Part shown: positions 1 through 8,990 of the stretch, in pieces | How positions within the stretch are numbered: position 1 is the stretch's first letter | How the letters are laid out: every line of letters begins with the position of its first letter | Origin: Acidimicrobiales bacterium | GTDB taxonomy: Bacteria; Actinomycetota; Acidimicrobiia; Acidimicrobiales; CADCSY01 | Reading direction: 5' to 3' | Assembly (NCBI GenBank): GCA_030447125.1 | Contig: JAUJLZ010000064.1 | Coordinates: 1-8,990, forward strand | DNA length: 8,990 bases | Position numbers and translations under genes: made by a program | The notes under the pieces: model-generated | Told to the model about the DNA's origin: nothing | Database searches by the model: none | What the model saw: only the letters and a program-made list of their open reading frames with translations

Positions 1-3000
1 CATCGGCGTACGCCTGCAGCTGGACCGAGTAGCGCTCGACCTTGGCCTCGAGATCCGCCTCGGTGGACCAGGCGTCGGTCTTGTAGTCCACCACCACGAG
101 CCCGTTGTCGTCCCGGTAGAGCAGGTCGATGTAGCCCTCGAGCACGCCGTCCCCATAGGGGACGCCGACATAGACTTCCCGCCAGTGCGGGCGCTCGGCG
201 GCTCGTTTGACGATGTCACTGGCTAGCGCGGAGCGGCACAGGGCTTCGATGACGTTCTCCTTGCCCAGCACGCCTTCGGCGGCGGCCTGGGCAGCGACGG
301 CCTGCTCGAGACCCTTACCGGTGGCGAGGTCAATGGTTTGCAGCACGCCGTGGACGGCTCGGCCGACGGCGGTGCCGTAGCGGCCCTTCTGCCAAGGGGG
401 CAGGTCGACGTCTTTGGCACCCTTGGCCAGGCCGGGGTCGCCGGCGGCGGCGCGGGCGGCTTCCTCCTCGGCTTCCTTCTGTGCTGCGGCTTCGGCGGCG
501 AGGCGGGTGGCGGAGGTGGCGACCGGCTTCGACGCGGCAGCGAGAGCGGCGTCGTGCGACCGGCGCCACTCATCGGGTGTCGGGAGGCTGACCGTGTCGG
601 CCGGTGTGTCCGGCGGCGTCGTCGCTTGGAACGGTGCGTGGTCGAGCTCGAGGTGCGTCACCTGGGCCGGGTCCCAACCAGCACGATGGAGCACCTCGGC
701 AGCCGTCGGACATTTCGGGTTCGTGCGGTCCTTGCGGTGGACGGACACGACGAGGTGGTCGCGGGCACGGGTGGTGGCCACGTAGAGCAACCGGAGTCGC
801 TCGTGGTGGTCCATCTGCTCCTCGAGGGGTTGGGTGAGCTCGAACTCGGCAGTGCTCAGGCCCTTCTTCAGCTTGATGGCCCACGCCTCGGTGGGCGGGA
901 AGCGCACCTCGACGCCTCGGGGGAAGGCGCGCATCTCGGTGGTGAGGCCCGACAACACGACGATCGGGAACTCCAGGCCCTTGGCGCCGTGAACGGTGAG
1001 GATGCGCACGGCGTCGTCGTCGCTCTCGGGAAGCACGGTCTCGACGACGCGGGAGCCCTCGGCCGACTGGCCTTCGGCCCAGCGGAGATACTGGCGCAGG
1101 GTGACGCCACCCGCTTCCTCCCACGCCCGGCACTGGTCGAGCACGAAGCGCAGGCGCCGCCACAGGTCACGAGGTCGGCGCTCGACCACGGCCAGCTCCA
1201 TGAGCCGACGGTCACGCACGATGCGCTCGAGCACCTGGCTGGGCGACAGCCACAACCGCTCACGGTGCAACTCCCCGAGCCAGGCGAGGCCGAGCGCCAC
1301 CCGATGGTCGGCCGGCGCGCCCTGGGGCGGTGGGCCCTGGTGGTCCCAGGACCCGCCGTGGCGCTTGCGCCAGGTGAACAGGTCGTCGTCACCACAGGCG
1401 AAGCCCGGCGTGCGAAGGGCGGCGACCACGGCGAGGGCATCGGTGGGGTCCTCCACGGCCCGAGCGATCAGGAGCAGGTCGCGCACCTCACGGGTGCCGT
1501 AGACGAGCGAGGAGGTCTCGGCCCGGTACGGCACCGCCGCCGCATCGAGCGCCTGCTCGAGGAACGGAAGCGATGTGCGGGCGGGCAACAGGATGGCGAT
1601 GTCGGACCAGTTCGGGTCGCACCAGATCTCGGTCCCGTCGTCCTGGCGCCTCCCGACCGACCACTGGTCGTTCATGGCGGTACAGATGGCGGCCACCACG
1701 TCGCGGGCCTCGGCCTCGCGTACCTGCCCAGCTGACGCCCTGGGGTGGTGCACCGTCCCGACGAATGCGACCGGTGGGCCCACCTCGGGCGACGGCCGCT
1801 CCCCTTCGAGGGGCAGGTAGGCCGGCTGCGAGTCAGGGACCTCGGCGATGAGCTGGTCGAAGGTGTGGTTGACCCAGTCGACGATCGGTCGACCAGCGCG
1901 GAAGTTCTTGGTGAGCGGCTCGCTGCTGCCGACGAGCTTGTCCCGGGCCATCAAGAACATGCCGATGTCGGCTCGGCGGAACCGGTAGATCGACTGCTTG
2001 GGGTCGCCGACGAAGAAGAGCCGGCCCGGCTCGATGTCGATCTGCGACCAGTGGCAGCCGCTGGCGGCCGGGTCGTCGGAGCCGATCAGTGCGGCGAGCT
2101 CGATCTGGATGGGGTCGGTGTCCTGGAACTCATCGAGCAGCAAGCGCTGGTAACGCTGGGCGAGGGCGGCCCGCACGCCTGGACCCTGGTCGCGGTCGCG
2201 CAGCACGGCGCGGGCCAGCACCAGGAGATCGTGGAACTCGAGCTCGCCCGCCCGCCGGCGGGCGTGGGCGCTGCGGACGGTGAAGTCAGCCAGGGAGGAG
2301 GCAAGGACCTGGAGCACGCCCTCCTGCACCGCTTGGCGGAGCAACTCGCAGTCGGCGTCGAGACCAGCGAGCAGGTCCTTCACCACGCCGATACCGACGC
2401 TGGACCAGTTTGCCTGGCGGCCGTAGCCGTAGGAGAGCTTGGCCTGCAGCAGGCTGAGCCGAGTGTCGTCGTCGATGGCGTCCTCGAGCCGGCGGGCGAG
2501 GTCGGTCACCGGGCCGTGGAGGTGCCCCAGGAGCTTGTCTTCGTGGTCGGTGCAGTGATCGGCGAGGGCAAGGACCGCCTCCAGCTGGGTGAGGATGGCG
2601 TCGACGTCGAGCGGCGGCACGTCCGGTGGTCGCCAGCTGGCCCGGTCCTCCACGAGGTCCCAGTTGGCGTTGAACGCCGCGGCGACGTCGTGGAGGTGCT
2701 TCAGGTCGGCGCCGCTGGCGAGCAGGAGGCGAAGCGCCTGTTCCCTTGCCGGGTCCTCCAGCAGTTCATCGATGTACGCCTCCCACCTGGCCTCGAACGC
2801 CACCTGGGAGGCGATCTCGTCGAGCACGTGGATGCGCGGGGGGAGGCCGGCCTCCACGGGATGCTCGTTCAGGACCCGCTGGGCGAACGAATGGAGGGTG
2901 CCGATGGCCGCCCGGTCGAGCACGACCAGGGCCTGAGCGCAGGCAGTACGTCCGGCACGAGCGCGTTCCTCGAGCTCGCCTCTGATGCGATCGAGGAGCT

Positions 3001-3187
3001 CGCCGGCGGCCTTCTCGGTGAACGTGATCGCCGCGATGTGATCAGCCGGGATCCCCGACTCGACCAGGGCCACGAACCGGGTGACCAGGCACGACGTCTT
3101 GCCCGAACCGGCTCCCGCCTCGAGGAACAGGGTGCGGTCGAGGTCGTCGGCGACGGCCCGGCGGGCCTCGTCGTCAGACGTCGGCAT
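1..3187 (-). CDS. AddA/AdnB-like UvrD-family helicase-nuclease, 3' end beyond window
   Basis: This is the motor and nuclease subunit of an AddAB/AdnAB/RecB-type enzyme that unwinds and resects double-strand DNA ends. The frame is open from ATG 3187 to the left edge (1062 codons, C-terminus missing). Superfamily 1 motifs read: Walker A AGAGSGKT at 24-31, Ia ITFTEKAAGEL at 54-64, Ib IGTLHSFAQR at 95-104, II DEFQDTD at 352-358, III GDPKQS at 394-399, IV NFR at 428-430, V TVHGAKGLEF at 731-740, and VI YVATTRARD at 802-810. An Ala/Glu-rich linker leads to a RecB-type nuclease: GTAVGRAVH (H946), GYID (D1021), DYKT (D1034, K1036) and QLQAYA (Q1056, Y1060), so both active sites look intact. The start lies inside the upstream AddB-like gene (14-base overlap). 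GGAGG at 3194-3198, six bases before the ATG, supports it. Few residues should be missing, since family members run about 1050-1250 aa. The AddA versus AdnB name is uncertain; the helicase-nuclease function is not. Confidence 0.95.
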   Translation of the reverse strand, partial: MPTSDDEARRAVADDLDRTLFLEAGAGSGKTSCLVTRFVALVESGIPADHIAAITFTEKAAGELLDRIRGELEERARAGRTACAQALVVLDRAAIGTLHSFAQRVLNEHPVEAGLPPRIHVLDEIASQVAFEARWEAYIDELLEDPAREQALRLLLASGADLKHLHDVAAAFNANWDLVEDRASWRPPDVPPLDVDAILTQLEAVLALADHCTDHEDKLLGHLHGPVTDLARRLEDAIDDDTRLSLLQAKLSYGYGRQANWSSVGIGVVKDLLAGLDADCELLRQAVQEGVLQVLASSLADFTVRSAHARRRAGELEFHDLLVLARAVLRDRDQGPGVRAALAQRYQRLLLDEFQDTDPIQIELAALIGSDDPAASGCHWSQIDIEPGRLFFVGDPKQSIYRFRRADIGMFLMARDKLVGSSEPLTKNFRAGRPIVDWVNHTFDQLIAEVPDSQPAYLPLEGERPSPEVGPPVAFVGTVHHPRASAGQVREAEARDVVAAICTAMNDQWSVGRRQDDGTEIWCDPNWSDIAILLPARTSLPFLEQALDAAAVPYRAETSSLVYGTREVRDLLLIARAVEDPTDALAVVAALRTPGFACGDDDLFTWRKRHGGSWDHQGPPPQGAPADHRVALGLAWLGELHRERLWLSPSQVLERIVRDRRLMELAVVERRPRDLWRRLRFVLDQCRAWEEAGGVTLRQYLRWAEGQSAEGSRVVETVLPESDDDAVRILTVHGAKGLEFPIVVLSGLTTEMRAFPRGVEVRFPPTEAWAIKLKKGLSTAEFELTQPLEEQMDHHERLRLLYVATTRARDHLVVSVHRKDRTNPKCPTAAEVLHRAGWDPAQVTHLELDHAPFQATTPPDTPADTVSLPTPDEWRRSHDAALAAASKPVATSATRLAAEAAAQKEAEEEAARAAAGDPGLAKGAKDVDLPPWQKGRYGTAVGRAVHGVLQTIDLATGKGLEQAVAAQAAAEGVLGKENVIEALCRSALASDIVKRAAERPHWREVYVGVPYGDGVLEGYIDLLYRDDNGLVVVDYKTDAWSTEADLEAKVERYSVQLQAYAD

Positions 3188-6100
3188 CGAGCGCCTCCGG
3201 GTCGGCCAGGCCGACATAGTCGGCCAGCACGGGGTCGAGCCGCTTGCGCTCCCACTCGCGGCGGCGGTCGGCAGCGCTGAGACCGTCAGGCGTGCAGTAC
3301 CAGCAGTCGACGTGGCCGACCCGGCTGGACGGCACCGACGGGTGGGCGGGGAACAGCCCCGCAGCGATGCCTTCGACGATGGTGTCGATGGCTGCGGACA
3401 CCTCGGCGGCGACCTCGGGGCTGACGACGTAGCCGCGCTCTTTGAACCCGCCCTTGCTGGTGTTGAACCAGTAGGCCGACCAGATAGGAAGGTCGGTCGG
3501 GAAGGCGGCCTCGGTGGCGACGGCGTAGAGGTAGAGCTGGAGCCACCGGCCCCCGCCATGCGGGTTCTGCTCCGAGAGGCCCTGATAGCTGTCGGCCCTG
3601 CCCGTCTTGTAGTCGAGGACGGCCAGTGAACCGTCCGGCCGGCGGTCGATGCGGTCGATCTTGCCACCCACGAGCAGCACGTGGCCGCTGGGCAGCGTCA
3701 CCGGCACGTCGGCGAAGGGATGCTCGGTCCCCAGCGGGCGGTAGCCCTGGGCGAGGCGCTCGGAGTCCTGCTCGAGGAACCGGTCGAGATCGGCGAGGAT
3801 CTGCGCACGGTCCCGGCGCCAGAAGAGGCGGCGCCCGGTGCGGCCGTCGGCTTCGTAGCGGGCGAAGTGCGCCTCGGCCACGAGCGTGAGCCGCGCCTGG
3901 TCAGCTGGCGTCCAGCCATCCAGCGGGTGCCCGGAGCCGATGGCCGTGCCGACGAACTCGTCGAGGATCTCGTGGATCAAGCTGCCCTTGTCGAGGGGGC
4001 TGATCATGAGCAGCCGCTCGGGCTCCTCGATCGGCTGCACGCCGAGCACGTACTGCAGCAGGTACCGGTGCGGGCACGCGGCCCACGTCTGCAGCCGGGT
4101 GGCCGACGCCCTCGGAGGTCGGCCCAGCTCGGAGGCGACGGTCCCAAGGTTGCCGTCGAAGCGGGTGAAGTGGTGGCTACGGCGGGCCTCCACGACCTCC
4201 AGCGCGGCGACGAGCGGGCCGTCAGCGGTGACGGCGGGATGGTCGTGCTGGCGGCGAGCGATCGCGGCGAGCCGCAGTTCCTGCTCCGATGCCGGGGAGG
4301 CCAGGCGAACGAGGCCCCCCTCGAACGACGGCACGTGATCGAGCCATGCCGCACCGGCATGCTCGGCGAGGTCGCCGGAGCGGAGGCCAGGTACGCCCGA
4401 CAGGCGGGCGGCATCGGCCACCAGCCAGCGGGAGGCCGGACGCTCACGGGAGCGCCGGAGGTCGCCCCGTGGCTGGCACAACACCGCCTCGTCGGCCGAT
4501 GCCGCCGCGGCGAGGAGGTGGCGGCGGTCGTCATGGACCCGTTGGGCCCGGAGCTGGAGGGCCCCGCCGGCAAACGTGCGCTCGGCATCGGGAAGCAGCG
4601 AGTCCTCCAGCCGGCGGGGCGGGAAGACACCTTCGGCCATACCCAGCACGATGACCCGGTCGAGGACCAGGCCCGAAGCGATTGCCACTGGGCCGACCAG
4701 CACACCGTCGCCGAGCCTTCCCACCCGACGGCCAGCCTGGTCGAGCTCTCCCTCGAGCGCCCGGCGGAACACCTCGACCGTCGGCGCCGGTCCTTCCAGT
4801 GCGTCCAGCCCGGCCAGGCGGTCGAGCGCCGCCTCCACCCGCTCGGCGGCGAGGCGTTCTTCGTGCGGCCAGCGCACCCGCCGCCGCTCGTCTCCCAGGT
4901 AGGTGGCGACGAGGCCTTTGGCCCACTCGACCAGCGCCCCCCACGAACCGGCGGCGGCACCGGCGTCGAGATCGGCTCGCAGCCGGCGAACGAACAGGGC
5001 CAGCGCGTCGGCGGTCTCGGCGTCGCGGCGCTTGCGGTCGGCCCGCCAGTCGTCCTCCCGTTCGGCGTCGATGGCCTCGGCGTCACGGCGCTGCTCGGAG
5101 GAGAGGTTGGCCAGGCGCTCATCCCAGTCGTCGCCGCCGACCACGCCGGCCTCACGGGACAGCCGCTCCCATGCCCGTCCCGGCACCCGACCCTCACCGT
5201 CGAGCAGCGGTGCAGCCGTGAGCACAGCGAGCACGTCAGGGCGCCGGTAGCCGCGGTCGGGCAGCGCGAGCAGGGCCCGGAGGGTCCGACCGAACAGCAG
5301 GTCACCGACGGTTCGCACCGGGGCACCGTTCCAGGGGATCCCGGCGGCGGCGAGCTGCTCGTGCACCAGGCGGGCGTACGGGTGGGGCGTGCCGTAGACG
5401 AGAGCGATCCCGGCCAGGTTGATTCCTTTGTGCATCCACTGGGTGACGAGGCGCACCGCCGCCCGCACTTCGTCGTCGGCGTCGCTGGTGCTGACGATGC
5501 TGGTGGCACAACGGGGCTCCATCTCCGGGGCTCTGACTTCGATGTCCGCCCGCCGATGGGAAGCGAGGACGGGGCTGTCGGCGTCGTGGTCGCCGGTGAT
5601 GCCGACGTTGACGTGAACGGGACGAAGCAGCCGGAGCAGGTCGGCGCCGGCCGGAGGGATCTCTTGCAGTAGGTGAACGATGACCGGACCACTCTCGACG
5701 GTCGTGCTTCCGAGCCAGGCCTCGGCTGCGGCGACCAGCAGATCATGCTCGCCGTACCAGTCGCCCACGAGGTGAGATCGAACGGCCCGATGGATCCGGA
5801 CGACATCGTTGGCACGGGGCGAGCAGGTGGCCACCAGGTCGAGCGCACCGTCGGGGACGGCAGCCAGCTCCCGGTGGGCAGCGACCAGGGCGCGCTCGGT
5901 GGCGGGATGAGCGGCGACGGGAGCGAACACCCCCGGCTCGTCGTCGAGCACGGTCCGCACGGCGGCGGCGATCACCGGCGCCGACACCGGCCGGCGGCCG
6001 GCGGCGGCGAGCGTGGCCGCGCCCAGTCGTTCGGCCAGGCGGTGCAGCGTGAGGAACGAGACGTTGGCGACGCCGCCAGGGCGGGCAGCCAGCGCTCGAC

Positions 6101-6275
6101 GGGCGGCGACGGCGACATAGTTCGAGGCGACGACCACCGTCACCGGAGCGAGCGGGTCGCCGCCTTTGATCTCGACCACCTGCCGGGCGAGTATGGCCAC
6201 CGCCTCGCGGCCGTAGGGGGTCGCATGTCCTTGAGTGTGCACGTTGGCGTTGTACTGGTCAGCCGTGACCGTCAT
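3174..6275 (-). CDS. AddB-like PD-(D/E)XK nuclease subunit of the helicase-nuclease
   Basis: This is the partner subunit of the downstream helicase-nuclease, expected to cut one strand during end resection. Numbering here uses a TTG start at 6287 (1037 aa). ATG 6275 gives 1033 aa and is preferred as the commoner codon; neither has a strong SD, and the short inverted repeat TGGCC-cc-GGCCA (6275-6286) lies between them. The N-terminal region is a degenerate helicase fold: TPYGREAV stands where a Walker A would be, and an AddB-like GMAEGVFPPR segment follows later. The nuclease core is complete: H772 (GSLIHEILDEF), D878 (GGKID), DYKTG with D892 and K894, and QLYLYA with Q917 and Y921. AddB enzymes usually carry four iron-sulfur cysteines, one before the nuclease and three after. 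Here C738 (WAACPHRY), C995 and C998 (DCWYC) are present, but the fourth position appears to be S1004. The gene is translationally coupled to the helicase gene and lies 65 bases after the accessory cassette, so read-through transcription is possible. Confidence 0.93.
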   Translation of the reverse strand: MTVTADQYNANVHTQGHATPYGREAVAILARQVVEIKGGDPLAPVTVVVASNYVAVAARRALAARPGGVANVSFLTLHRLAERLGAATLAAAGRRPVSAPVIAAAVRTVLDDEPGVFAPVAAHPATERALVAAHRELAAVPDGALDLVATCSPRANDVVRIHRAVRSHLVGDWYGEHDLLVAAAEAWLGSTTVESGPVIVHLLQEIPPAGADLLRLLRPVHVNVGITGDHDADSPVLASHRRADIEVRAPEMEPRCATSIVSTSDADDEVRAAVRLVTQWMHKGINLAGIALVYGTPHPYARLVHEQLAAAGIPWNGAPVRTVGDLLFGRTLRALLALPDRGYRRPDVLAVLTAAPLLDGEGRVPGRAWERLSREAGVVGGDDWDERLANLSSEQRRDAEAIDAEREDDWRADRKRRDAETADALALFVRRLRADLDAGAAAGSWGALVEWAKGLVATYLGDERRRVRWPHEERLAAERVEAALDRLAGLDALEGPAPTVEVFRRALEGELDQAGRRVGRLGDGVLVGPVAIASGLVLDRVIVLGMAEGVFPPRRLEDSLLPDAERTFAGGALQLRAQRVHDDRRHLLAAAASADEAVLCQPRGDLRRSRERPASRWLVADAARLSGVPGLRSGDLAEHAGAAWLDHVPSFEGGLVRLASPASEQELRLAAIARRQHDHPAVTADGPLVAALEVVEARRSHHFTRFDGNLGTVASELGRPPRASATRLQTWAACPHRYLLQYVLGVQPIEEPERLLMISPLDKGSLIHEILDEFVGTAIGSGHPLDGWTPADQARLTLVAEAHFARYEADGRTGRRLFWRRDRAQILADLDRFLEQDSERLAQGYRPLGTEHPFADVPVTLPSGHVLLVGGKIDRIDRRPDGSLAVLDYKTGRADSYQGLSEQNPHGGGRWLQLYLYAVATEAAFPTDLPIWSAYWFNTSKGGFKERGYVVSPEVAAEVSAAIDTIVEGIAAGLFPAHPSVPSSRVGHVDCWYCTPDGLSAADRRREWERKRLDPVLADYVGLADPEALDADV

Positions 6276-6340
6276 GGCCCCGGCCAAGTTTTCGCTAGCC
6301 GGGTGGCCGGAGGCGACGGTGCGAAAGGCATCGGCATCAT

Positions 6341-6709
6341 CTAGCAGGGCTCACCAAACCCGCCGCGAGGAATGTCGCAACTCGCCATGATGTCACCGTC
6401 GGGCTCCACGTAGACGGCGTCGTCCGGACCGAAGACGGCGCACGTCCGTCTCGTGGTGGATCGGGAGAGATCCACCAGGCGCTCGACCAGCACTGCCCGG
6501 CTGGGGTCAGAGGCTTCACTCTCTGAATCGGTGACAGGAACCAGGAGGGTGTCGCCCGACTGCGACAAGCCGGCGGCGTCTTCGACGAAGCGAACTGGCA
6601 TCCACTCGTAGGTGGCAGCGAAGTGGCGGATCACCACGTACGGGAACTGCCCTGCCCTGCCCGGTGAAAAGTCTTGTCCGTGCAATGCATCGACATCGTC
6701 GTTGTTCAT
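6341..6709 (-). CDS. Hypothetical protein, 122 aa, last gene of the accessory cassette
   Basis: I do not recognise this protein. It is small and acidic, starts MNNDDVDALHGQDF, has an aromatic stretch around residues 22-40 (FPYVVIRHF, TYEWMPVRF), a central Ser/Asp/Glu-rich part, and ends in FGEPC. I see no membrane segment, signal peptide or catalytic motif. Its ATG (6709-6707) overlaps the stop of the preceding 165-aa gene (TGA, 6708-6706) in an ATGA arrangement, which supports both the start and co-translation. AAGG sits about nine bases upstream. The stop is TAG at 6343-6341. The tight coupling suggests it works with the 165-aa protein, perhaps as a partner, but that is inference only. It may be restricted to this cassette. 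Confidence 0.72.
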   Translation of the reverse strand: MNNDDVDALHGQDFSPGRAGQFPYVVIRHFAATYEWMPVRFVEDAAGLSQSGDTLLVPVTDSESEASDPSRAVLVERLVDLSRSTTRRTCAVFGPDDAVYVEPDGDIMASCDIPRGGFGEPC

Positions 6710-7203
6710 CCGGTTTTGCCTTGGTCAGTTGACCATCTGGCCCTTTGCCAGCGACCTCGCCGTGCAACTTCTTCGGCGACGCTCGATTCAGCAATCAGAG
6801 GCAGGCCGTCGACATGCTCGACATCGGCGTCGGTCAAAGGGGAGACTCGGACACGAGAGCGGGCAGCGTGCAATAGAAGGACGAGGAGGTCCTCTGGATC
6901 CACCTCGCCCCAGCGCGCCTCAATCAAGGCATCATGAAGGTCAGACATGCCGAAGGAGGCTTCGACGCTCCACTCGCCTTCGATCTCGATCACCAAGTCG
7001 AGATGGTCGGCCAGGTAGTCCACCCGAAGGAAGAGATCGTGGTACCACCCGTAGGTGTCGGTACCGAAGCCATCGGGAGCGACGTAGTGGAACCGGACGA
7101 TTGGCTGGCCCATGAGGTCGACCTCACAGTCGGCCCATGCCGGGGTCGGATTCGGGGCCCAGTGGTCGAGATCGAGTGCGAACAGCCCCGAAGTGAAGGT
7201 CAT
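6706..7203 (-). CDS. Hypothetical protein, 165 aa, coupled to the CBS-HEPN gene
   Basis: I do not recognise this protein. It is acidic and looks like a soluble alpha/beta fold. The N-terminal half has beta-like stretches (GQPIVRFHYVAPDG around residues 32-45, LFLRVDYL and LDLVIEIEGEW around 57-78); the C-terminal half looks helical (SDLHDALIEARWG, EDLLVLLLHAARSRVRV). There is no signal peptide, membrane helix or evident catalytic motif. ATG 7203 overlaps the TGA of the CBS-HEPN gene (7202-7200) as ATGA, and AAGGGG lies about seven bases upstream, so I prefer it to the in-frame start at 7230, which would lie 30 bases inside the preceding gene. Its stop overlaps the next start in the same way. 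Being sandwiched between two ATGA junctions implies fixed stoichiometry with its neighbours. It could be an antitoxin or regulatory partner of the HEPN protein; nothing in the sequence proves this. Confidence 0.78.
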   Translation of the reverse strand: MTFTSGLFALDLDHWAPNPTPAWADCEVDLMGQPIVRFHYVAPDGFGTDTYGWYHDLFLRVDYLADHLDLVIEIEGEWSVEASFGMSDLHDALIEARWGEVDPEDLLVLLLHAARSRVRVSPLTDADVEHVDGLPLIAESSVAEEVARRGRWQRARWSTDQGKTG

Positions 7204-8141
7204 GTCGGCGTCCCCTTCGCTTGCGCCCAAAGTTGGTTGCGGATCCTCTCCGAGAGGTCAAGGAGGCGTTCGTCAAACCTTACAAGCCCCTCGATCGAGT
7301 ACTCGGCGGTGATGCTCCCTTTAGAAGGGTGCATCACCCAATTTCGAAGGGAGTCGAGGGAGCCCGTCGCCTTCTTCCATTGCTCTCCCGTAAAGCCAAG
7401 GCGGATGGCTTCCGTCTTTCCGACCACCTTCATCAGATCGGCGAACATGAAATAGCTGACGACATCGGCGTCAAGGTCCTGGCGACGGTCGCACAACATC
7501 CGGCTCTCCACCTCAGCGCGCCGTTGGGCTGAAAGGACCCTCAAGACGCTTGGCAAAGGGTCGAAGTGCCGCCGGATGAGGTTAGCCATACCGATCTCCA
7601 CCTCTGCAACCAACAGGTAGAAGTAGGAGCGAACGGGTTGCTTGTTTGTGTCCGAAGGGGTGACGAAACCCGTCAGGCGGTTACCCTCTAAAACGAACAA
7701 GAACCCGCAATCGAGCCATCGAATCATGTCGTGAAAAGGAGCGTCGCCAGTCACGATCATTTGTGGCGTAATGGGCCGTAGTCGAGCACTGACATCTTCT
7801 TGGCCGTCATCCTGTAAGTCTGTTCCGGCGACGTAACCGACTAGCTGACTTTCGCGTCTGACCGGCGCGAAATCAAAGCGCCTCTCACGGAGGGCTCGCT
7901 TCGCTGCACCCTCATTCTCAGTTACATCAAAAATGGTGGCATTGGTCAGGATCGTCTGGAACTGTCGAACGCGTATGGATCCGCTTAACTGCACATACTC
8001 GACCTCTACGGGAGGTTCGGAGTACGGTGTGGGGGACGCGCTAGTGCTGGCCATCATGGGCGAATGAACCTGAAGTCCTCGCCGTTTGTGTTCGGTGCCT
8101 ACGGGAGTAGTGATGAGCGAGGTGGCAGACTTATCAGGCAT
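7200..8141 (-). CDS. CBS-domain protein with C-terminal HEPN-like domain, 313 aa
   Basis: Two CBS repeats are visible after a disordered, Ser/Pro/Thr-rich N-terminus (1-45). CBS1 is at about 70-110 (ending FAPVRRESQLVGYVAGTDL) and CBS2 at about 124-165 (MIVTGDAPFHDMI, then LEGNRLTGFVTPSD). CBS pairs commonly bind adenine nucleotides and gate an attached domain. The remaining 150 residues are helical: SYFYLLVAEVEIGMANLIRR at 172-191, a basic stretch, then SLRNWVMHPSKG at 264-275. R266 and H271 make an R-x4-H motif with Asn after the Arg, the signature of HEPN domains, many of which are metal-independent RNases in toxins and antiphage systems. RNA cleavage is inferred, not shown. ATG 8141 is chosen because TAAGG lies nine bases upstream; a TTG at 8162 would add seven residues. 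Codon use is more AT-rich than in addAB, which suggests transfer. The ATGA overlap with the next gene implies coupled translation. Confidence 0.85.
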   Translation of the reverse strand: MPDKSATSLITTPVGTEHKRRGLQVHSPMMASTSASPTPYSEPPVEVEYVQLSGSIRVRQFQTILTNATIFDVTENEGAAKRALRERRFDFAPVRRESQLVGYVAGTDLQDDGQEDVSARLRPITPQMIVTGDAPFHDMIRWLDCGFLFVLEGNRLTGFVTPSDTNKQPVRSYFYLLVAEVEIGMANLIRRHFDPLPSVLRVLSAQRRAEVESRMLCDRRQDLDADVVSYFMFADLMKVVGKTEAIRLGFTGEQWKKATGSLDSLRNWVMHPSKGSITAEYSIEGLVRFDERLLDLSERIRNQLWAQAKGTPT

Positions 8142-8150
8142 AAGGCTGCG

Positions 8151-8155
8151 CCTTA
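8151..8155 (-). promoter_or_regulatory. SD TAAGG overlapping the stop codon of the 66-aa gene
   Basis: Minus-strand TAAGG contains the TAA stop of the zinc-finger gene and stands nine bases before ATG 8141 of the CBS-HEPN gene. It decides that start over the TTG at 8162 and suggests that ribosomes ending the first gene reinitiate on the second. Confidence 0.6.
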
Positions 8156-8353
8156 GTAACAATCAGAGTGAATCCAAGTGCCGTCATCGTCCGAAACCAG
8201 GAGATCCGCCCCTAGGCCGAACTCTTGGCTCTCGGGCTCGACTTGGATCGCTCCTCCACAGCGGTAGCACGTCCCTCCGTACCGGGCCCGCATCCTGGGC
8301 CGAGTACCCGCCCGACCGAGCGTGGGCGCAAGCTCATCGAAGTGATCATCCAT
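8153..8353 (-). CDS. Small zinc-finger-like protein, 66 aa, first gene of the cassette
   Basis: A basic N-terminal half (RAGTRPRMRARYGG) leads into a CxxC...HxxC pattern: C29 and C32 in TCYRCGGAI, then H62 and C65 in WIHSDC at the extreme C-terminus. This spacing and the flanking GGTCYRCGGAI and W-x-H-x-x-C phrases match small treble-clef zinc domains that are common in actinobacterial proteins. Metal binding is very likely; the ligand (nucleic acid or protein) is unknown. The start is well supported: GGAGGG at 8364-8359 stands five bases before ATG 8353. The stop TAA (8155-8153) forms part of the TAAGG ribosome-binding site of the CBS-HEPN gene, so the two are probably translated from one message. 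It is the promoter-proximal gene and could be an autoregulator or an accessory subunit. It is complete but small, and a false call remains possible. Confidence 0.75.
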   Translation of the reverse strand: MDDHFDELAPTLGRAGTRPRMRARYGGTCYRCGGAIQVEPESQEFGLGADLLVSDDDGTWIHSDCY

Positions 8354-8430
8354 TGTGTCCCTCCAGCCTTCGTCCGTCGAGCACAGCGTTCTGATCAGTA
8401 TCGACGCTTGCCGCGTCCACCTTTAGGGCG

Positions 8431-8447
8431 TGAGGGTGACCCCCTCA
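8431..8447. repeat. Inverted repeat, 6-base arms, in the divergent intergenic region
   Basis: TGAGGG and CCCTCA flank the 5-base spacer tgacc. It lies one base from the larger palindrome at 8449-8472, in the 171-base gap between the divergent 66-aa gene (8353) and the transposase relic (8525). No T-run follows on either strand, so a factor-independent terminator is unlikely. It could be an operator half or chance in GC-rich DNA. Confidence 0.5.
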
Positions 8448-8448
8448 T

Positions 8449-8472
8449 AGTGGTCCAGGCCACTGGACCACT
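8449..8472. promoter_or_regulatory. Perfect 10-base inverted repeat, possible operator or transposon-end structure
   Basis: AGTGGTCCAG (8449-8458) is followed by gcca and its exact reverse complement CTGGACCACT (8463-8472). It sits 52 bases before the GTG of the transposase relic and about 95 bases before the 66-aa gene, so it could bind a dimeric repressor controlling either direction, or mark the left end of the former insertion sequence. No T-run follows, so I do not call it a terminator. I found no convincing -35/-10 pair for the minus-strand operon. The best -10 guess is GATACT near 8400, with no good -35 element. Confidence 0.6.
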
Positions 8473-8524
8473 CACCGCTTCTTCGCTGTGGTCACACACG
8501 ACCGCGACGAAGGAGGGCCGGACG

Positions 8525-8860
8525 GTGCTGGTGGAGCTGGGGTTGGTGGAACAGCGGCTTAGGGCAGTGCTGGAGGTGCTGACCACGCTCAACGACGGGG
8601 CCAGCGTCAGGGACGTCGCCTGCCGCAATGGGGTGGCGCGCCAGACCGTGCACCGGTGGCTGCGCAAGTACGCGTCGGGCGGACTCGCCGCCCTCGCCGA
8701 CGGAGCTCCGACCCGACACGTGCCCCCACACTCAACCGGCGAGCGCTGCCGGTTCCGGAACGGCGCCGGAGGCGACCCGAAACACGGCTCAGTTAGGTTG
8801 CCGGATGGGCAGGTCCCCCCCGTGACGTCCATGCCGGCAACAGGTTCGTCAACCCGATGA
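8525..8860 (+). pseudogene. IS481-type transposase relic, N-terminal HTH only, frameshifted
   Basis: The first 60 residues read as an IS481-family transposase start: LVEQRLRAVLEVL, then a helix-turn-helix at about 26-48 (GASVRDVACRNGVARQTVHRWLRK), then YASGGLAALAD. GTG 8525 has a perfect SD (AAGGAGGG, 8510-8517, seven bases upstream), so I reject the longer frame from 8225, which would run antisense through the 66-aa gene. After residue 59 the family pattern jumps to another frame (ELRPDTCPHTQPA near 8705-8745 resembles the RP-x-x-CPHQ-x-PA continuation), so a small indel lies near 8700-8710. The DDE catalytic domain is absent: the broken frame ends at TGA 8860, and nothing after it looks like a transposase. 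The product would be an inert DNA-binding fragment at most. It marks past insertion-sequence activity beside the accessory cassette. Confidence 0.8.
8797..8841. repeat. Imperfect hairpin with 12/13-base arms in the relic's 3' part
   Basis: GTTGCCGG-ATGG (8797-8808) pairs with CCAT-g-CCGGCAAC (8829-8841), with one bulged base and a 20-base loop containing a run of seven C. A second short repeat, GGTT-cgtc-AACC, follows at 8843-8854. It may be a remnant of an insertion-sequence end or a structured RNA element; its function is unknown. Confidence 0.5.
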
Positions 8861-8990
8861 GGGCGCGCAGAACGCGGTTCGGAGCGGCGTGGCGGTGGCG
8901 CGTCTGTCCGGCTCGTGCGCTGATAGGTGCGGCAGATTCAGGGGCTGGGGGCGCGAACCGCCCGGCTCGCGCTTGGCGCCGGATGAAAGG
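8861..8990. other. GC-rich edge sequence with no recognisable gene
   Basis: An ATG frame from 8857 on the plus strand and a frame entering from the right edge on the minus strand (ending at a TAA near 8795) are both open. Neither has an SD or a recognisable motif, and open frames are expected by chance at this base composition. A five-base hairpin, GGGCG-gttcg-CGCCC on the minus strand, lies near 8950-8965. I call no gene here. Confidence 0.4.

Follow-up and report, generated by a model that had tools for sequence, protein, structure and literature searches.

We analyzed a gene for a CBS-HEPN protein in an 8,990-nucleotide stretch of an Acidimicrobiales bacterium contig (JAUJLZ010000064.1, positions 1 to 8,990), here called the window. 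The open reading frame (ORF) lies on the minus strand with 313 codons from an ATG at 8141, and an alternative TTG start at 8162 would add seven codons. A preliminary description of this DNA had given the correct coordinates without stating the strand; a plus-strand reading of 7200-8141 was ruled out by in-frame stops. The same strand carries, downstream of the CBS-HEPN gene and in this order, genes for 165 and 122 amino acids (aa), an AddB-like gene and an AddA-like gene. One protein, P0001, has the same length of 313 aa and is 95% identical to the window protein, and a sequence search of about 5.8 billion proteins gave 17 matches at E ≤ 1e-3. The first profile search with the family found 72 proteins at E ≤ 0.01. 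A third search, to which divergent members had been added, found 149 at this threshold, 120 of which were listed; in the listed rows examined, the organism was haloarchaeal wherever the source named one. Both profile searches scored only the approximately 8,000 candidates with the most shared words. Even with the threshold relaxed to E 1, no Pfam domain was recognized in the protein, and PADLOC assigned no family to it or to four relatives.

The AlphaFold2 model of the protein has a mean predicted local distance difference test score (pLDDT) of 81 and a predicted template modeling score of 0.74, with residues 1-45 below pLDDT 50 and predicted to be disordered. A PDB Foldseek search with the model listed 50 matches, all to CBS or CBS-containing structures (E 2e-6 to 5e-5), and the best of these were CBS pairs (E 2e-6), as in two tandem CBS domains (a Bateman module). 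The matches included AcuB and the CBS pairs of CorC/CNNM transporters, and several of the structures contained AMP, ADP or ATP. A BFVD search of the whole model was uninformative, its one match below E 0.001 being also a CBS protein. Pfam CBS was present in 28 of the 29 members of alignment A5, which was picked from the searches and whose archaeal rows share about 20% identity with the window protein. Because Pfam matches nothing in the window protein, the CBS assignment rests on its relatives and the model, and by this route the CBS pair claimed in the preliminary description was borne out. CBS domains sense nucleotides and their derivatives (PMC3710099, cited here and below from the available part of its text). 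G158 and D164, both in the second CBS domain, were kept in 71 of the 73 rows of A2, an alignment of the window family, the other two rows having gaps. The matching position of the first domain, Asp108, was an Asp in 18 of the 73 rows. Since D164 is conserved and Asp108 mostly is not, each chain probably has one canonical ligand site, located in the second CBS domain.

The C-terminal half of the protein is helical in the models, with a helix at residues 262-270 followed by a loop. The sequence RNWVMH (residues 266-271) stands at the end of helix 3, the position of the Rx4-6H motif in HEPN ribonucleases (RNases). VIA-align matched this part to HEPN structures, Csm6 among them, with a middling Z that agrees with a HEPN helical bundle; a plain Foldseek search of the HEPN part was of no help. 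R266 and H271 were found in 66 of the 73 rows of A2; five others end before the motif, and in the remaining two (P0015 and P0057) the sequence is truncated or shifted at this point. N267, the polar residue after the Arg, occurred in 60 rows (otherwise R in three, H in three, D in two and a gap in five), and E182, the acidic residue of an earlier helix, in 71 (one K, one gap). Ten columns were invariant in A5: D90, A92, P93, G102, D164, E182, L236, R266, V269 and H271. The conservation of R266 and H271, proposed earlier as a check on the HEPN claim, thus held, as did the position of the motif in a helical C-terminal region, and this conservation is more than chance would give. The alignments indicate a HEPN-type domain with all the catalytic-type residues, E182, R266, N267 and H271. 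We considered the possibility that the domain has a HEPN fold but no RNase activity and is instead an adaptor, for dimerization or RNA binding, that the CBS pair controls, since inactive HEPN families exist (PMC3710099) and the Z of the fold match was not high. Against this, the RNase-site Glu, Arg and His are invariant down to about 20% identity, and the related protein DS-11, described below, needs its HEPN catalytic residues (PMC13092281), making this explanation highly improbable.

DS-11 was reported in 2026 as a one-protein anti-phage system with CBS and HEPN domains (PMC13092281, of which a part of the text was available). DS-11 defense was abolished by Y157A in the CBS domain or by HEPN catalytic mutations, and the authors propose that the nuclease is regulated by an undiscovered adenine derivative. 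The window protein scored 14.6 bits (E 0.013) with the NCBIfam model DS11_antiphage (NF053863), for which the cut-off is 260 bits, and relatives scored higher, for example P0017 with 35.3 bits. Weak matches to this model mean little by themselves because most control genomes also have them (13 of 14 at E 0.001 and 9 of 14 at E 1e-6); at E 1e-6 they occurred in 150 of 400 Chloroflexota genomes. Four of the 400 genomes encode DS-11 members over the cut-off, and these, together with a fifth sequence at 206 bits from the same genomes, make up alignment A7. Their motif reads RNDVMH in three sequences, RNEVMH in one and RNRLMH in the 206-bit sequence.

Comparison of A7 with the window family by hhalign gave 97.0% (E 1.2e-10) over window residues 52-297, with RNDVMH aligned on RNWVMH, and comparison with the wide family gave 98.2% (E 4e-14). 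The HEPN part alone reached 92.4% and 94.2% with the window and wide families, respectively, and the CBS part 93.1% and 97.2%, all of these percentages standing alone without an unrelated-profile control. When 21 selected rows were aligned jointly (A8), seven columns were invariant, including the Asp of the CBS pair and the Glu (E182), Arg, Asn and His of the HEPN domain, and the window protein was 17% identical to DS-11. The NF053863 match ended at profile position 284, the HEPN His, in eight of 15 proteins (P0016, P0017, P0051, P0060, P0063, L004, L006 and L008); of the other seven matches, five stopped short of this position and two, those of P0002 and the window protein, extended past it. 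The hhalign results, the shared columns and the match ends at the HEPN His show that the window family and DS-11 are homologous and colinear along both domains, a CBS pair followed by a HEPN domain with R-N-x3-H. The stretch ahead of the aligned part is about 90-130 residues long in the DS-11 sequences and 51 in the window protein; the alignment starts at residue 132 of the DS-11 member L063 and at residue 52 of the window protein. A score far below the NF053863 cut-off and the absence of the N-terminal region of DS-11 place the window family on a separate branch.

Fusions of CBS with HEPN domains, and of CBS, HD and HEPN domains, were reported in 2013, with alr3009 and a Pelobacter propionicus protein as named examples and nucleotide-responsive regulation of RNA stability as the suggested role (Anantharaman et al. 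2013, PMC3710099). By description, the window protein resembles these fusions in its domain combination and proposed nucleotide-responsive RNA control; unlike some of them, it showed no HD match. Beyond these two papers (PMC13092281 and PMC3710099), no further work on the architecture was found in titles and the starts of abstracts, with few subscription journals covered, and DS-11 was the only CBS-HEPN member with published phage data in the literature so searched. The preliminary description knew of no well-characterized system built this way, but CBS-HEPN fusions had been reported before, and their prototype, DS-11, has been tested against phage. Csm6 and Csx1 of type III CRISPR systems (CARF-HEPN) follow, in outline, the same plan, joining a HEPN RNase to a sensor of adenine-based ligands. 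The sensor of the window protein differs from theirs in matching CBS rather than CARF structures, and no CRISPR gene was noticed in the window, in which no search aimed at CRISPR was made.

Direct support exists for the CBS pair, for a HEPN-type domain carrying the catalytic-type residues and for homology to DS-11. On this basis, and from DS-11 and HEPN chemistry, we infer that the window gene is, with reasonable probability, a divergent, minimal relative of DS-11-type CBS-HEPN proteins, encoding a nucleotide-gated dimeric RNase for phage defense. The protein would act as a dimer, because HEPN RNases and CBS pairs are usually both dimeric. An adenine nucleotide would bind in the second CBS domain, where the Asp is conserved, and binding would shift the dimer into an arrangement in which its two R-N-x3-H motifs together make a metal-independent RNase site. 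Infection would change the nucleotide, and RNA of the host or the phage would be cut. The nucleotide-gated RNase suggested in the preliminary description is retained as the best mechanism available, although not as a new architecture. As a distant cousin of DS-11, the window gene widens a known kind of defense protein and does not found a new one. In CBS-HEPN proteins a widespread nucleotide sensor is joined to a domain that cuts RNA, and this plan reaches beyond the curated DS-11 family in a minimal form that lacks the N-terminal region and retains the CBS Asp and the HEPN site of DS-11. The distinct branch in bacteria and archaea provides a comparative handle on the ligand-reading residues and archaeal test systems.

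Relatives occurred in bacteria and on haloarchaeal plasmids, and no match was found in phages, in viral contigs or in plasmids queried with the L009 protein. Full or partial relatives were present in four of the 400 Chloroflexota genomes, a patchy occurrence; ranks 5-21 of the 21 Chloroflexota matches (17 matches, below 38 bits) covered the CBS part only and were dropped as generic CBS proteins. The R-N-x3-H motif was present in 12 of 13 haloarchaeal plasmid loci. The exception is L005, where the 228-aa copy ends prematurely at an IS630-type transposase gene and lacks the motif.

A restriction or defense gene lay within the fetched stretch at nine of 17 other loci: DpdE/DrmD-like and McrB-like genes at L001, an MkoA-like gene at L004, an AspBHI-type endonuclease at L051, DrmA at L052, BREX by annotation about 7 kb away at L054, and a restriction endonuclease by annotation at L055, L059, L060 and L061. 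None was counted in the fetched stretches of L005, L006, L053, L058, L062 and L028, and the other two loci, L029 and L030, are hardly annotated; L058-L060 are weak relatives. About 5 kb from the L028 copy is a NERD-UvrD helicase, and that locus also gives a weak, partial match to PycC; a KAP NTPase is present at L058 and a TnpB gene at L005. Because annotation depth is uneven and there is no background rate, these neighborhoods are support, not proof. They bear on the alternative of a housekeeping or stress RNase. In this view the CBS pair would read the energy state of the cell or an alarm nucleotide, and host RNA would be trimmed by the HEPN domain, with no role in phage defense. The nucleotide-responsive role suggested in 2013 and the nucleotide sensing of CBS domains (PMC3710099) would suit such an enzyme, as would the metabolic neighborhoods of L053 and most of L028 and the position of the window gene beside AddAB-like and small genes with no recognized defense system. 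However, the patchy occurrence, the copies on haloarchaeal plasmids, several of them near restriction or defense genes, and the homology to a tested anti-phage protein make this explanation unlikely. The coordinates of the features are collected in Table 1.

Table 1. Features of the window and of loci carrying related genes (locus coordinates are prefixed with the locus name)
Feature	Coordinates	Strand	Basis or remark
CBS-HEPN protein, 313 aa	7200..8141	-	ORF, close homologue, model
CBS pair, residues ~49-166; second CBS with G158-F-V-T-P-S-D164	7644..7997	-	model m40126f70fddb, PDB Foldseek
HEPN-like helical domain, residues ~168-309	7215..7640	-	models, VIA-align to HEPN structures, weak Pfam HEPN matches in relatives
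R-N-x3-H motif RNWVMH, residues 266-271	7329..7346	-	sequence and conservation
E182, conserved acidic residue, first HEPN helix	7596..7598	-	conservation in A2, A5 and A8
DS-11 members over cut-off	L063:1399-2529, L064:1426-2430, L065:1471-2487, L066:1480-2544		NCBIfam NF053863
165-aa gene	6706..7203	-	ATGA overlap with CBS-HEPN stop; sole Pfam match Luciferase domain, E 3.1
122-aa gene	6341..6709	-	ATGA overlap with 165-aa gene; no Pfam family
66-aa protein, C-x2-C ... H-x2-C	8153..8353	-	ends 11 bases before CBS-HEPN start; no Pfam family
AddB-like protein with PD-(D/E)XK nuclease domain	3174..6287	-	Pfam; TTG 6287 start assumed
AddA/RecB-like UvrD helicase with PD-(D/E)XK domain	2..3190, runs off window	-	start near 3190 judged from junction
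~118-aa gene	L004:3413-3769, L006:3413-3769, L051:6416-6772, L053:6423-6779, L054:6320-6676, L061:6515-6862, L062:6441-6797		divergent
Doubtful eighth ~118-aa gene	L005:3425-3808		same place, 21% identity, no tblastn link
Early-stopping CBS-HEPN copy	L005:3887-4573
Gene similar to 122-aa gene	L028:10760-11488		beside another CBS-HEPN copy
CBS-HEPN at C-terminus of longer proteins	L052:6095-7567, L055:6137-7552		490 aa and 471 aa
ADP-ribosylglycohydrolase-type gene	L004:2137-3045, L005:7891-8537, L054:7664-8644		annotation
ORF with transposase-type matches	8225-8860	+	helix-turn-helix matches

None of the 66-, 165- and 122-aa genes gave a usable Pfam match, and the 66-aa protein, read by eye, is a putative zinc ribbon. 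A promoter and terminator scan found no promoter-like site and a terminator count at the level of shuffled sequence. HEPN toxins often have small partner genes of this kind, and we weighed a toxin-antitoxin pair in which the HEPN protein is the toxin and the antitoxin is encoded by the downstream 165-aa gene or is the upstream 66-aa protein. The ATGA overlaps that couple the CBS-HEPN gene to the 165-aa gene, and this to the 122-aa gene, would fit such a pair and set the window copy apart from the one-protein DS-11 system. A conserved, divergent gene of about 118 aa, a candidate regulator or antitoxin, also lies directly beside seven of the eight short-type haloarchaeal plasmid copies and, doubtfully, the eighth. 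However, the small genes of the window had no match beside other copies in the loci compared, except for 45% identity over 40 residues between the 122-aa protein and the L028 gene (E 3e-7 when this one pair, chosen by eye, was compared; E 1e-4 to 2e-4 when the fetched loci were searched). The 122-aa gene was rejected as a constant partner, being found in one of the 400 Chloroflexota genomes (G366), on a 4.5 kb contig with no CBS-HEPN gene among its listed ORFs. Unlike HEPN-MNT toxin-antitoxin systems (HepT-MntA), the window protein has a fused CBS pair, and Pfam gave no nucleotidyltransferase or MNT match among the three small neighbors. Since DS-11 also works as a single protein (PMC13092281), we regard a toxin-antitoxin pair as quite unlikely, somewhat more so than a housekeeping RNase, and retain the DS-11-type explanation.

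The AddB-like gene begins 53 bp from the 122-aa gene if TTG 6287 is its start. Three plasmid records matched its protein (the best, from Microbacterium, at 40.8% over 67% of the length), and the best eight Chloroflexota matches were 35-37% identical. A bolder extension of the DS-11-type explanation would make the CBS-HEPN gene, the three small genes and the AddAB-like pair a single operon. AddAB, by attacking foreign DNA or by failing to do so, would then change the adenine nucleotide read by the CBS pair and trigger RNA cleavage as a second line of defense. The basis of this extension is the gene order of the window, the AddB-like and AddA-like genes that directly precede the 490-aa CBS-HEPN protein near DrmA on a Haladaptatus plasmid (L052), and the UvrD helicase gene that overlaps the CBS-HEPN start at L001. 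The Chloroflexota survey gave this extension no support, and we consider it very unlikely. AddAB was rejected as a general partner: AddB-like matches (E 1e-20) occurred in 34 of the 400 genomes and CBS-HEPN relatives in four, and G242 alone had both, on different contigs.

Some relatives carry the CBS-HEPN part at the C-terminus of longer proteins (L052 and L055), with the N-terminus of the L055 protein weakly matching Methyltransf_25. An ADP-ribosylglycohydrolase-type gene was annotated near three of the eight short-type haloarchaeal copies, a count with no control set. A mobile element may flank the operon of the window, as suggested by the transposase-type helix-turn-helix matches of the plus-strand ORF.
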